This document shows positions 7,886 to 18,064 of a stretch of DNA of 32,076 nt, piece after piece. The stretch comes from Candidatus Thorarchaeota archaeon. GTDB lineage: Archaea; Asgardarchaeota; Thorarchaeia; Thorarchaeales; Thorarchaeaceae. The stretch lies in assembly GCA_016840825.1 (NCBI GenBank), contig JAEORN010000207.1:1-32076 (forward strand). Reading direction: 5' to 3'. The notes beneath the pieces were generated by a model. That model searched no databases, was not told the DNA's origin, and saw nothing but the letters and a program-made list of their open reading frames with translations. A program made the translations under genes and the position numbers. Positions within the stretch are counted from its first letter, which is position 1. Each line of letters opens with the position of its first letter.

Positions 7886-9232
7886 TTATCCTGCATGTTC
7901 AGAGGTGAGTTCGTCCCCAACCTCACCGGTCTTCACTGAAAGCATGAATATGAAGGCTATTACCAAAAAGACAATCGAAAGCGGGAATAGGAGTGAAAGC
8001 GATGTGAAATCAAAGATGATTCCGCTAATCAATGGACCAAATATCGCTGCACTCATGCTGAAGAGATAGTAGAGTCCTGTGCCAGCTCCAATCCTTGCTT
8101 TACCAAGCTGCTCCCAGACCATCACGATAGAGTTAACGTTTACCATCGCCCACCCAAGACCAGCTATGACTAGGATGATCATCATGATGTAGTAGTCTGT
8201 CGTGAGAATCAACAATAGGATTCCGAAGATCATGATGATTAAACCTCCAAGAATCGTTCTCTTGCGTCCCAACTTACCTGCGAGTAATCCGCCAGGTATG
8301 GCGAATAACACAAACGACAATGCAAATGCAGTAAGCTGGAAGGAAGCATCAGCAGTAGCAAATCCCAGAACCTCATTGCCATACTTGGTATACCAAGTTT
8401 CCATGGCATTCCATCCGAAGAACCAGAACAGAATAGCAACGAGTAATGCGATTGCAGATTTATCTTTACCAAAGGATACTTGCTTTATTGCCTCAGAGAT
8501 GCCAACTTCCTTTGGCTTGCTGGAATCAACAGGAGGTACTTCAGGTTCCTTAACTATCACGAATAGGATGATTGTTGCTATAACCATGATTATACCCGTT
8601 GTTAGAAACGTTAGAATAGGACCAACTCTCGAAGGGGTCGTTGCGAATAGAGCTGCAAGCCCAGGATCCTCAATCTTGTAGATCTGAGATGCAATCGCAA
8701 AAGCATAGATAGCGCCAACACCACCCATCAAATTGATGACTCCATTAGCCTTGCTACGATGCTCCGAGGATACCACATCAGGCATCAGAGCCACAACAGG
8801 AGCTCTGTAATATGCCATTGCTACATTGAATATCGTGATGAATAGGAACATCAACCAGAAACTAAAAGCGGCCCATCCAAGTGCAATCAACGCAAAGAAT
8901 ACAGCTGCAGTTGGTGTACCTATTAGGATGTAGGGCATTCTTCTACCCAATCTTGATCTTTCACGATCGGACCTTGCTCCAATATATGGCTGCAAGAAAA
9001 GCGCGAACACGTTATCAAGTACCATGATTGCGCCAATGATTGTGTTCTGGAAGTCGCCTTGGATAAATGTTGGCAGGAAATCAGCAGGCAGATAGCTATT
9101 GTATACACTCCAGCTGACTCCTGTTGTAAAGAATCCAAGTCCTATGACAAAGACATACAGCCATCGCATTGGCTCAGGCATGCTCTTAGTCACAGTACCT
9201 CCGGAAGCAGGAGTTGAATCTTCATTTGACAT
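7886..9232 (-). CDS. MFS transporter of the SLC45/GPH sugar-cation symporter type
   Basis: The 448-residue protein has about twelve membrane helices. Two features recall the SLC45/GPH (sucrose/maltose-proton symporter-like) branch of MFS: the charged loop GARSDRERSRLGRRMPYI at about residues 85-102, and, after the fourth helix, APVVALMPDVV followed by RSKANGVINLMGG. Members import di- or oligosaccharides with protons or sodium, but the substrate here is not proven. A hydrophilic tail precedes helix 1 and an acidic tail ends the protein. Start ATG 9232 is preceded on the minus strand by a purine-rich run with GGAG about 12 bases away. The gene is monocistronic, with a hairpin terminator just after its stop. 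Confidence 0.85.
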   Translation of the reverse strand: MSNEDSTPASGGTVTKSMPEPMRWLYVFVIGLGFFTTGVSWSVYNSYLPADFLPTFIQGDFQNTIIGAIMVLDNVFALFLQPYIGARSDRERSRLGRRMPYILIGTPTAAVFFALIALGWAAFSFWLMFLFITIFNVAMAYYRAPVVALMPDVVSSEHRSKANGVINLMGGVGAIYAFAIASQIYKIEDPGLAALFATTPSRVGPILTFLTTGIIMVIATIILFVIVKEPEVPPVDSSKPKEVGISEAIKQVSFGKDKSAIALLVAILFWFFGWNAMETWYTKYGNEVLGFATADASFQLTAFALSFVLFAIPGGLLAGKLGRKRTILGGLIIMIFGILLLILTTDYYIMMIILVIAGLGWAMVNVNSIVMVWEQLGKARIGAGTGLYYLFSMSAAIFGPLISGIIFDFTSLSLLFPLSIVFLVIAFIFMLSVKTGEVGDELTSEHAG

Positions 9233-15422: not shown

Positions 15423-15461
15423 GAAAGTGGCATTCCAAGTATTTTGTGTCAAAAAGAGAGA

Positions 15462-15480
15462 GAGGCGACTAAGTCGCCTC
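15462..15480 (-). terminator. Hairpin terminator of the short-ORF operon
   Basis: GAGGCGACTAAGTCGCCTC forms an eight-base stem with a three-base loop. On the minus strand it is followed by CTCTCTCTTTTTG, a T-rich run, so it should end transcripts coming from the right. The hairpin includes the last three codons and the stop of the 39-codon ORF, so coding and terminator sequence are fused. Confidence 0.7.
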
Positions 15481-15588
15481 AAGTGCTAGAACGTCTTTGA
15501 TTGTTATCTCGCGACGTCTTACCCTATCCAGGACAAAACTAGTCCTGTATCGGTCATCCTGATGTGAAAGTCTTGGTTCACGAGCCAT
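15469..15588 (-). CDS. Short ORF C, 39-residue basic protein (last of three)
   Basis: ATG at 15588 to TAG at 15469-15471 encodes 39 residues, beginning MAREPRLSHQDDRYRTSFVL and ending ITIKDVLALEAT, rich in Arg and Asp and without membrane character. GGTGAT lies four bases before the ATG and overlaps the TGA stop of ORF B, so its translation should be coupled to B. It is not visibly related to ORFs A and B. The stop lies inside the terminator hairpin. No family is recognised. Evidence for being real: a strong ribosome-binding site, tight packing in a line of three ORFs, and a terminator exactly at its end. Confidence 0.6.
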   Translation of the reverse strand: MAREPRLSHQDDRYRTSFVLDRVRRREITIKDVLALEAT

Positions 15589-15593
15589 TACTA

Positions 15594-15683
15594 TCACCGA
15601 TTGTAAAGATATGAGAAGCTAATAGCCTGTGTTGAGATCTCTTTCTTGGGGGACTTGATCTTCTGTGTCTTTGCTAGAGCCAT
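15594..15683 (-). CDS. Short ORF B, 29-residue protein related to ORF A
   Basis: ATG at 15683 to TGA at 15594-15596 encodes 29 residues. It begins MALAKTQKIKSPKKE and ends ISTQAISFSYLYNR. AGGAGGT, the best Shine-Dalgarno in the region, stands nine bases upstream and overlaps the stop codon of ORF A. The C-terminal half matches ORF A position by position (I/L-S-T-x-A-I-x-F-x-Y-x-Y-x-R), and both start MAL with a lysine-rich middle, so A and B are paralogues. The basic middle plus aromatic end could bind nucleic acid or a protein partner; this is inference. Confidence 0.6.
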   Translation of the reverse strand: MALAKTQKIKSPKKEISTQAISFSYLYNR

Positions 15684-15689
15684 AACATC

Positions 15690-15797
15690 TTACCTCCTGT
15701 AGGTATATGCGAATCGGATAGCTTCAGTCGACAGTGACTGAGCAATCTTCTTGTTCTTCGTTTCAGATTGGATTCGGGAGTTGCTTTCTAACGCCAT
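15690..15797 (-). CDS. Short ORF A, 35-residue protein (first of three)
   Basis: ATG at 15797 to TAA at 15690-15692 encodes 35 residues. It begins MALESNSRIQSETKNKK and ends SLSTEAIRFAYTYRR. GGTGA lies seven bases upstream of the ATG. The end (LSTEAIRFAYTYRR) aligns with the end of ORF B. Its last two Arg codons and stop (AGG AGG TAA) form the ribosome-binding site of ORF B, so the two genes are packed with no waste. The leader of about 40 bases carries a palindrome that may be an operator. It is first in a likely three-gene message reading away from the HTH gene at 15990. Function unknown. Confidence 0.6.
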   Translation of the reverse strand: MALESNSRIQSETKNKKIAQSLSTEAIRFAYTYRR

Positions 15798-15814
15798 TGT
15801 CTGTTCACCGTTTT

Positions 15815-15880
15815 GGTTTGTTAATCAAACCATTCGACATCTAATGGTACACACCATTTGCATATAAAGGTTTGCAAACC
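15815..15880 (-). promoter_or_regulatory. Short-ORF operon promoter with palindromic operators
   Basis: On the minus strand a TATA box (CTTTATATG, plus-strand 15861-15869) is followed about 25 bases later by the likely transcript start near 15838. Three palindromes sit around it. GGTTTGCAAACC (15869-15880) lies just upstream of TATA, overlapping the BRE position. AATGGTACACACCATT (15843-15858) lies between TATA and the start. GGTTTGTTAATCAAACC (15815-15831) lies in the leader. A protein bound at these places would block TBP/TFB or RNA polymerase. A further ACCATT (15829-15834) extends the second pattern. Confidence 0.6.
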
Positions 15881-15931
15881 AAACTATGTTGAAAATTACA
15901 TTCGCGTAGTAAACGGTTCATCTAACAAAAC

Positions 15932-15986
15932 TTTAATATACCATCCAATTTAGATAGTATGTGGAATTAAAACACTAAATGGTGAT
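15932..15986 (+). promoter_or_regulatory. Promoter and ribosome-binding site of the HTH gene
   Basis: TTTAATATA (15932-15940) is a good archaeal TATA box. About 25 bases later transcription would begin near 15963. GGTGAT (15981-15986) is a Shine-Dalgarno three bases before the ATG at 15990. The same GGTGA form is used by short ORFs A and C, the DUF4129 gene and the larger profilin-like gene. Confidence 0.6.
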
Positions 15987-15989
15987 AGA

Positions 15990-16724
15990 ATGGACGATGA
16001 CATCACAGATGCGTTGGAAGGCATTGAACTCACACCAGAAGCGAAGAAGCCCGTTCCTGATGTTGAATTCGTAGGTGACGAGGAACGCGCAAGGGAACTT
16101 GATGATGCAGTTAGATTAGCTATCCTTCAGGTCCTTAGAAAGGGAATACCTGATACGAAGACTACCAAAACAAAGGATTCTGAAACAGGGGACACAATAA
16201 TTCGTCAGAGAGAGGTAAATCGTACTGCTCTCTCTGTTGTAGAAATCGTGAAACAATCAGAAGAAATTGACTATATTGAGAATGTGACCAAGAATCAAGT
16301 CTATCACCACCTCCCAAAGCTTATTGAAGCGGGCTATGTAATCAAATTGGGCACCGTGACCACAGGAAAGAGAACCACTGACTATTATAGACGAACAGCA
16401 GGTGGTTTTGTACTTGCGACAAGCGTATTGAGCTCAGCAGACGAAAAGATGCTACGGAAAAAGAGCCAGAAAGTAATGGAAAAGCTATTCCAACACTTCA
16501 AGTTGGAAATGACTGATGATGAGAAGAAGAAATTCGAAGACCTTAGATTCGAGGCTCTTAAAATCGAGATTGCCGCTAGGAAGGAGGTAGTCAAGATGAT
16601 TCGGAGCGACGTCGCAGACAAGGACGTCCTAGATCTATATGAGTTCCTCATGCAGATGTATGCTCTTGGGAATGAAGAGTATATTGAGATTCACAGAAAA
16701 GTCAGAGACCTCCTATTCAAATGA
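15990..16724 (+). CDS. Winged-HTH (ArsR/PadR-like) regulator with long C-terminal helical region
   Basis: The 244-residue protein has an acidic N-terminus (about 1-40), a winged-helix domain (about 35-145) and a helical C-terminal half. In the HTH, DDAVRLAILQVL forms the first helix, VTKNQVYHHLPKLIEAGYVIKL is the recognition-helix region, and TGKRTTDYYRRTAGGFVL is the wing. The HTH carries a long insertion (about residues 52-80, rich in Thr/Lys/Asp) between its first helices. The C-terminal part (about 148-244) is highly charged and probably coiled-coil, suited to dimerisation. It is an ArsR/PadR-like DNA binder of unknown effector. It is divergent from the short-ORF operon and therefore the first candidate to bind the palindromes there. 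Confidence 0.75.
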   Translation: MDDDITDALEGIELTPEAKKPVPDVEFVGDEERARELDDAVRLAILQVLRKGIPDTKTTKTKDSETGDTIIRQREVNRTALSVVEIVKQSEEIDYIENVTKNQVYHHLPKLIEAGYVIKLGTVTTGKRTTDYYRRTAGGFVLATSVLSSADEKMLRKKSQKVMEKLFQHFKLEMTDDEKKKFEDLRFEALKIEIAARKEVVKMIRSDVADKDVLDLYEFLMQMYALGNEEYIEIHRKVRDLLFK

Positions 16725-17148: not shown

Positions 17149-17508
17149 CTATCGAATCCTTGCTGCCGCGTATTTCAAATCAATTATTGCTAGTTCAGGA
17201 ATGGAATCTTGTGTTGCCCACGCTACAAGCCAAGAGTTGCTCCTTGTGCGAGCCATCAAAATGTGTCCTTTTTCTTCAGAGGAGGATGCGATAAGGGCAT
17301 CTTCAGTTTTTTCAATGATCTTGTACGAAATCTTTGCTATTACAACTTCCCTTTTGGTTTTTGTAATGGACTCCACAAGATCATTCACATCTTTGACGAG
17401 ATTCCAATTATCAGTCTGCCATATGATTTGTCCATCGTCCATTACGGCAAAAGCCTGAATTTTATTGTTATGCATATAGAGATGAGTCCACACATCAGAA
17501 AGTGACAA
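17149..17508 (-). CDS. Profilin-like protein, paralogue 2
   Basis: The 119-residue protein aligns along its whole length with the upstream neighbour (17577-17957). Shared landmarks are QAF-x-V near residue 18, the pair IWQTDNW versus LWQSNNW, and WLVAWA versus WVVAWA near the end, then a C-terminal helix. The predicted order (helix, two strands, helix, several strands, helix) fits profilin, and also the roadblock/LC7 fold, which is similar. In this copy the profilin-like KY-x-x-x-R stretch is less conserved (SYKIIEK). Start TTG 17508 has AGGAG nine bases upstream. Profilins bind actin and regulate its polymerisation; no actin gene is in the window. Roadblock is the main alternative. Confidence 0.5.
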   Translation of the reverse strand: MSLSDVWTHLYMHNNKIQAFAVMDDGQIIWQTDNWNLVKDVNDLVESITKTKREVVIAKISYKIIEKTEDALIASSSEEKGHILMARTRSNSWLVAWATQDSIPELAIIDLKYAAARIR

Positions 17509-17576: not shown

Positions 17577-17957
17577 TTAGATTCTCCCCTTAAGGGACTT
17601 TGCAGCACGATCGACATCAACATAGACACCGTCAGGTGCGGCATCGGGGGATGCCCATGCGACAACCCACTTGTCATTCTCAATCTTAGCAAGGATTAGG
17701 ATACCATTACCTTGAATACTTCGAGCAACAAGACTTTCTGGACTTGTACGCATCGTACTGTATTTCACTTGGTTCTGAGTGACACTAGCAGCCCTAGTGT
17801 TGACAGCTGCAACTAGGCCTCTTGCATCAGCTTCTAGACTCCAATTATTACTTTGCCAAAGGACAGAGCCATCACCTTTTATGACACCAAAGGCTTGGAC
17901 CATCTGACCAGACGAATTGTAAGCTTGTGTATAAGCATCCATGACAGGATCGGACAT
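17577..17957 (-). CDS. Profilin-like protein, paralogue 1
   Basis: This 126-residue protein reads as profilin-like. There is an N-terminal helix (DPVMDAYTQAYNS), a strand pair with the turn DGSVLWQSNNW (compare the profilin turn DGSVWAQS), a helix (LEADARGLVAAVNTRA), then VKYSTMR, a region resembling the KY-x-x-x-R strand, GNGILILAKI and WVVAWAS, and a C-terminal helix (VDRAAKSLKG). Asgard archaea are known to encode profilins that act on actin. I compare from memory, without a search, and a roadblock/LC7 protein has a similar fold, so the call is provisional. Start ATG 17957 has GGTGA six bases upstream. The promoter region to the right contains a GGTTTG-N5-CAAAC palindrome. Confidence 0.58.
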   Translation of the reverse strand: MSDPVMDAYTQAYNSSGQMVQAFGVIKGDGSVLWQSNNWSLEADARGLVAAVNTRAASVTQNQVKYSTMRTSPESLVARSIQGNGILILAKIENDKWVVAWASPDAAPDGVYVDVDRAAKSLKGRI

Positions 17958-18048: not shown

Positions 18049-18064
18049 GGTTTGGTACCCAAAC
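18049..18064. promoter_or_regulatory. GGTTTG-N5-CAAAC palindrome between profilin-like and DUF167 genes
   Basis: GGTTTGGTACCCAAAC repeats the arms and spacing of the site at 15815-15831 (GGTTTGTTAATCAAACC). It lies ten bases before the DUF167 start codon and about 90 bases upstream of the profilin-like gene on the other strand. An A/T-rich box (ATAAAAAAG, 18018-18026) nearby could serve as TATA in either direction. It is a candidate operator for the same regulator that acts at the short-ORF operon. Confidence 0.5.

Follow-up and report, generated by a model that had tools for sequence, protein, structure and literature searches.

Three very short genes, A, B and C, in the 32,076-nucleotide stretch of archaeal DNA analysed here (the window) are best read, with a probability of roughly 0.55, as a micro-operon of trans-acting small effectors, which is released by a neighbouring winged-HTH regulator and is special to one archaeal class, presumably the Thorarchaeia of the Asgard archaea. 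From comparison among relatives, coding and coupling of the three genes are well supported and regulation of the module less so, while their products would probably function as trans-acting effectors linked to transport or stress. Genes of 26-40 codons easily escape annotation, and a multi-copy Asgard family with signals of selection and coupling, with operators and with concerted evolution is amenable to testing.

The genes occupy a gap of 567 bases (15423-15989), flanked by a methyltransferase gene (plus strand) with a weakly Trm112-like N-terminal part and, on the other side, by the divergent winged-HTH regulator gene (15990..16724, plus strand, 244 aa). All three are read from the minus strand. 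A (15690..15797) would encode a basic small protein of 35 aa and B (15594..15683) one of 29 aa, likewise basic and a paralogue of A, while C (15469..15588) comprises 39 aa from its ATG, or possibly 42 aa from an alternative GTG start at 15597, and carries a conserved VLxLEAT ending. The candidate Shine-Dalgarno sequences, all on the minus strand, are GGTGA for A (15805..15809), AGGAGGT for B, located within the last codons of A (AGG AGG T; 15692..15698), and GGTGAT for C, located at the end of B (15593..15598). Upstream of A lies a TATA-like element (CTTTATATG, 15861..15869, minus strand), and the C stop codon is embedded in a terminator-like hairpin (GAGGCGAC-TTA-GTCGCCTC, 15462..15480, minus strand), which is followed by a T-run at 15451-15455. 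The initial annotation, made from the window alone, had described a gap of about 570 bases with minus-strand ORFs of 35, 29 and 39 codons, a Shine-Dalgarno sequence for each, gene ends meeting the next ribosome-binding site, an upstream TATA box and a terminal hairpin with T-run, all of which are present in the sequence. Its core claim, that of a conserved operon of short, easily missed proteins with paralogous A and B, also passed the sequence tests described below.

Relatives of the window were found via the HTH protein, whose relative in the PDB is PH1932 (1uly, 2cwe; E 3.8e-9) and whose homologues, where the source is named, stem mostly from Candidatus Thorarchaeota (120 of the 307 listed). 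A search of genome contigs with the single HTH sequence gave no match, and an alignment of 35 HTH proteins gave 43 HTH loci, 39 of them from Candidatus Thorarchaeota. In 33 of these 43 loci, the minus strand of the 1000 nt upstream of the HTH gene contains matches to the A, B or C profiles; three loci (L026, L037, L039) have less than 250 bases upstream, which gives 33 of 40 testable loci, and one with a single, weakly alike ORF (L042) was left out of the 33. The profile search found no A, B or C match upstream of the HTH gene in L002, L027, L038, L040, L041 and L043, among which L038 and L041 are extra HTH copies within the genome of L009, and L040 shares a genome with L002. In the aligned HTH-adjacent rows, A is 35 aa long in 30 of 32, B measures 26-32 aa in 28 rows and C 36-39 aa in 26 rows. 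Kept gene order and a kept A/B ending had been proposed as a check, and the relatives do retain the genes, their order and the ending.

Selection at the protein level points in the same direction. Comparison of synonymous with non-synonymous change, likewise proposed earlier, revealed an enrichment of synonymous substitutions, with pN/pS values next to HTH genes and in dispersed copies, respectively, of 0.40 and 0.42 for A, 0.42 and 0.30 for B, and 0.56 and 0.46 for C, all calculated from pairs of 70-98.5% identity only and with shared ancestry uncorrected; "dispersed" here denotes all loci numbered above L043 and includes a few HTH-adjacent copies, such as that of genome G198. The two other forward frames gave 0.78-1.53, as against 0.30-0.56 in the real frame; one reverse frame is also low (0.32-0.59), which is expected because the wobble positions coincide, and the remaining two range from 0.71 to 1.88. 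The 13 codons at the end of A and of B are under the tightest constraint (0.18-0.29), and the last 13 codons of C (0.43-0.47) are not its most constrained part. In a single profile-profile comparison, A and B are related with an hhalign probability of 98.4% (E 5.5e-15), and comparisons of C with A and with B indicated no relation. On the strength of these comparisons we regard A and B as shown to be paralogous and protein-coding, and C as coding for a different protein.

Both A and B measure about 26-37 aa and combine a variable N-terminal part with a conserved C-terminal segment, for which the protein motif proper reads ST-x-A-I/L-x-Y-A-Y-x-Y, and both are basic (median pI 10.2 and 10.4) and hydrophilic (median GRAVY -0.69 and -0.77). 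The C family, of about 33-40 aa, is usually acidic (median pI 4.7), and the basic C of the window (pI 9.9) is among 6 of 26 C rows with a pI of at least 7. AlphaFold2 models A as one long helix (pLDDT 80, pTM 0.33) and C with low confidence (pLDDT 65), so that neither an informative fold nor a partner is indicated by the models. Family searches returned little: in Pfam, no match up to E 1 for the A, B and C of the window and one chance match (E 0.053) for the C rows; in NCBIfam, one match each for the A rows (E 0.094) and the C rows (E 0.086) and none for the B rows; in PHROGs, no match up to 0.1 for the rows of all three. Among PDB sequences, A had no match up to E 10, B a best match at E 0.1, to part of ribosomal protein L7a, and C a best match at E 0.66. 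A protein-database search detected nothing like A and, for C, only the window's own protein, a negative of little weight given that the method requires three 5-residue words in common; a literature search by title and abstract start, with subscription papers mostly outside its coverage, found no such operon. None of the families in the libraries searched corresponds to A, B or C.

The arrangement of the genes on the messenger suggests that they are translated together. All 103 A genes with a listed cistron behind them have the core of a Shine-Dalgarno sequence within their four final codons, the last of which is AGG in 98 and AGA in 5, and the core is present at the B end in 65 of 69 such B genes; the core is also frequent in genes with no listed cistron behind, at 19 of 23 for A and 34 of 62 for B, an MFS gene following some of these genes, and these counts stand without a chance expectation. 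Since the Shine-Dalgarno sequence of the next gene lies in the last codons of A and B, translation of successive genes is probably coupled, and for the same reason the final R or RR of the A/B ending represents, at least in part, a ribosome-binding site. In the two-gene class in which B comes last, B ends in varied residues. The earlier claim that A and B share the ending S-T-x-A-I-x-F-x-Y-x-Y-x-R beyond chance thus holds as regards paralogy, and its final R is largely given over to the Shine-Dalgarno sequence. Identical duplicates were removed from the Shine-Dalgarno and hairpin counts as well as from the MFS-neighbour and operator-class counts below.

All of 72 C stop codons examined lie inside a predicted hairpin below -8 kcal/mol, and the conserved C ending overlaps the terminator stem. 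A structured RNA of which the ORFs are a by-product would account for this conserved, overlapped hairpin, but it is hardly credible given that purifying selection is specific to frame, that RNAalifold output contains no long-range consensus helix joining the ends of the A-B-C unit, and that an Rfam search gave no match up to E 1. Moreover, the centre of the terminator stem has shifted in the window and in L001, the locus closest to it, and VLxLEAT is nevertheless retained, which argues that the ending of C is a protein signal as well.

A further feature of RNA folding was seen in a two-gene class, A''-B, with a TGTAATA-type palindrome (L126, L135, L141, L142, L144, L146, L147, L158, L161 and L178). 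The region of the A'' start codon can pair there with bases immediately downstream of the B stop, at 9-13 of 14 positions in the best placement (a figure with no shuffled control behind it), with changes of a compensatory type such as AUGGCU/AGCCAU and AUGACU/AGUCAU; the best placement lies elsewhere in L161, and L178 pairs least. The A''-B mRNA may accordingly close on itself.

The genes found downstream bear on the question of whether A and B act in cis or in trans. As cis-acting leader peptides, A and B would be nascent-chain sensors controlling whichever cistron comes last, an MFS transporter gene or else C together with its terminator, in that ribosomes which slow down or stall on the conserved ending would mask or expose the Shine-Dalgarno sequence of the following gene. 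This fits the position of the conserved segment at a constant distance to the stop, behind a variable N-terminal part, the lengths of 26-40 aa, which would fill the exit tunnel, and the next Shine-Dalgarno sequence within the last codons. Leader peptides of the ErmCL/TnaC type are short, conserved near the C-terminus and encoded upstream of resistance or transport genes; A and B resemble them in shortness, in C-terminal conservation and, in some loci, in preceding transport genes, whereas here the majority of C-ending copies lack an adjacent gene in the same direction.

In line with a cis-acting role, a co-directional MFS gene is found at most 600 nt downstream in 18 of 40 units that lack C as against 0 of 43 with C, and also in 3 of 23 single-gene clusters and 5 of 34 HTH-adjacent units (window included), with an upstream MFS gene in 1 of 106 other units; MFS genes were assigned by likeness to seven Pfam-confirmed proteins, themselves taken from downstream genes, which favours downstream detection. 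In several loci the MFS start follows the B stop by only about 5 nt, and among 11 loci of the A''-B class that were viewed, 5 have a same-strand ORF that begins about 105-134 nt behind B. On the other hand, among 67 C-ending units at loci above L043 with enough downstream sequence, the first ORF downstream is convergent in 52 and co-directional in 13, with neither kind within 500 nt in the other 2, counting as neighbour any uncurated ORF of 150 aa or more, and the convergent ORF ends at most 60 nt away in 28 of the 67. Most of these units are therefore left with no obvious output gene, which suggests that the units are self-contained and that their products function as proteins, and on this ground a general role in attenuating the following gene was set aside. 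The frame-specific selection at the amino-acid level fits a trans-acting protein too, and we judge the leader-peptide explanation, overall, to be unlikely, albeit deserving of real weight.

The same transporters raise the possibility of exported peptides, pheromones or antimicrobials, that leave the cell through the MFS protein, with immunity conferred by either C or that transporter and the HTH protein as sensor. Small ORFs beside an HTH gene, conserved C-termini, the cationic character of A and B and the MFS_3 "secretion effector" type of the transporters in some operons would agree with this. Leaderless multi-peptide bacteriocins such as aureocin A70 consist of tandem short cationic paralogues encoded in one operon. 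A and B share this arrangement but differ from the aureocin A70 type in being hydrophilic and conserved class-wide; conservation instead of diversification, the hydrophilicity and the fact that most copies have no adjoining MFS gene make export quite improbable. Separately, at L092, L044, L123, L088 and L097 an MFS gene lies 236-463 nt behind the HTH-adjacent cassette and resembles, by eye, the gene at 7886-9232 of the window, about 6 kb away there.

Regulation of the module was approached via the promoters. In the window, an operator-like palindrome (GGTTTGCAAACC, 15869..15880) abuts the TATA-like element and a second one (GGTTTGTTAATCAAACC, 15815..15831) lies between the TATA-like element and A; allowing up to 1 mismatch, the window holds three matches to the palindrome as against a mean of 0.10 expected, the third being elsewhere, at 18049. 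Sites of the GGTTTG-N5-CAAACC type occur in 29 of 30 HTH-adjacent cassette promoters (0.2 expected by shuffling), L006 being the lone exception, and a second operator type, AGTCACA-N3-TGTGACT-N7-GTGACC, in none of these 30. The latter is present in 72 of 80 other promoters (0.0 expected), 84-87 nt before A, in a count from which units lacking an ATG 29-38 codons from the end of A or having less than 85 nt upstream were dropped; L187 alone among the 80 has a GGTTTG-type site, and L063, L072, L091, L101, L169, L181 and L196 have different upstream sequences, some with another palindrome. Genome-wide, the second pattern was found in 44 of 50 genomes, namely in 44 of 46 within the class and 0 of 4 outside, at 213 sites as against 15 for a reversed-pattern control, the 213 including some palindromes counted in both readings and the 15 being totalled by eye. 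The GGTTTG-type pattern is rare and exceeds its control by little, with 17 sites in 12 of 22 genomes versus 7 reversed-pattern matches, which weighs against the reading as HTH-released effectors.

A variant of the operator-like site (GGTTCATCTAACAAA, alike at 8 of 10 positions), together with a TATA-like element (ACTTTAATA; 15915..15938, plus strand), also precedes the HTH gene itself. Such variants near the HTH start occur in 17 of 41 HTH promoters, the window included, versus 2.5 expected, which suggests autoregulation of the HTH gene at some loci, the window among them, and not at all of them. The proposal of the initial annotation that the peptides are ligands of the HTH protein fared less well: what speaks for it is adjacency and this operator-like site at some HTH promoters. 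A likeness by eye between the ending of A (TTDYYRR) and the HTH wing (TTDAIGYAYVYRR) was also considered, and profile comparison gave it no support.

Operators of these types are found before other genes as well. The AGTCAC type, with mismatches, precedes a bactofilin-like gene (by Pfam in L233, and alike by eye in L234 and L236-L242) and a membrane-protein gene in L230 and L235, the latter having no Pfam match. A small conserved ORF with the pattern KPCLTxENRSIxVQSFGAxCY lies upstream of MFS genes in L186/L256, L172, L189, L191 and L244, and in L186/L256 it stands directly behind a perfect GGTTTG-type operator.

Within the phylum, the B profile matches 47 of 227 genomes at E values of at most 0.1. 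The class itself, with 47 genomes, accounts for 45 of these (G004 and G189 lack a match), and the 180 genomes outside it account for 2, both weak matches (G018, E 0.055; G162, E 0.044). The A profile matches 42 of the 47 genomes of the class at E 0.001. A genome has up to 11 B-profile matches, a number which overstates copy number because A matches the profile of B too. Loci were fetched via HTH, B or A profile matches, some of them overlapping, and those from the B matches, listed to about E 1.5e-4, were picked by hand (20 + 77 stretches, two of the 77 being repeats). The resulting 199 loci and the window contain 198 match clusters, of which 104 have A, B and C in order, overlapping loci being counted twice and identical duplicates kept.

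Some dispersed copies are nearly identical, with sharp ends running from operator to terminator: five in G198, alike at 88-98% over 404-418 bp, and four in G007, alike at 88-98% over 398-411 bp. These dispersed copies, their sharp ends in two genomes and the location of several copies at contig ends could be taken to indicate a mobile element of about 400 bp, extending from palindrome to hairpin, with three passenger ORFs. However, the flanks of 4 of the 5 dispersed copies in G198 match those of a copy in G007, on both sides for three copies and on one side for L107/L111; the remaining one, L106, had no counterpart among the five G007 loci fetched. Identity from operator to C end is 89.0-98.2% within a genome, and counterparts at matching sites (82.0-85.6%) are no closer than other cross-genome pairs (81.0-85.1%). 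Furthermore, the tree of the G198 and G007 copies groups them by genome with 100/100 support, and scans of viral contigs detected neither the exact operator nor a confirmed relative of A, so that phage origin was discarded along with, for the most part, recent jumping of near-identical copies. A mobile element is thus very improbable, and fixed sites with copies that cluster by genome speak for gene conversion rather than recent jumping. By these alignments and this tree, the copies in the two genomes are shown to undergo what we interpret as concerted evolution. The HTH-adjacent copies of G198 and G007 (L103 and L113) gave no match to the other copies at the same comparison settings.

In the reading as HTH-released effectors, the divergent HTH protein would repress A-B-C as well as its own gene and, upon a signal, release both, whereupon A and B would work in trans as small effectors. 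Within a response to stress or an efflux response, their C-terminal segment might dock on a common partner, for which a transporter, the ribosome and RNA are candidates, and several regulators would each possess their own copy of one effector module. A role in transport or stress is the best guess because of the MFS link and because of two precedents. The leader peptide peTrpL of Sinorhizobium meliloti is reported to act in trans on multidrug efflux gene regulation (PMC7298713). Like A, B and C it is a very small protein, and it is tied to efflux gene regulation; it is, however, bacterial and derives from a transcription attenuator, whereas the module described here is archaeal, self-contained and multi-copy, with two paralogues and a third gene. 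The archaeal small protein sP36 of Methanosarcina mazei is reported to bind and control a membrane transporter (PMC10714827); it has 61 aa and a known partner, in contrast to the 29-39 aa of A, B and C and their purely genomic link to a transporter.

A broader version of the effector reading, which we put at somewhat short of even odds, would make A and B part of a common effector module: coupled basic paralogues of about 30 aa, with at least two and probably four operator classes, served by several one-component regulators, subject to gene conversion in some genomes and with C swapped for an MFS gene in some operons. If A and B are indeed shared effectors of several regulators, they would constitute a new regulatory layer in archaeal relatives of eukaryotes, and if they are leader peptides, they would exemplify tandem nascent-chain control in archaea; the operators offer direct handles for testing either reading.

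Elsewhere in the window, on the minus strand, two further small proteins are encoded in tandem at 17149-17508 and 17577-17957. The former has no Pfam match, and the latter bears a weak likeness to profilin, with a match to the Pfam Profilin model (E 2.9e-4) that falls short of the curated cut-off.
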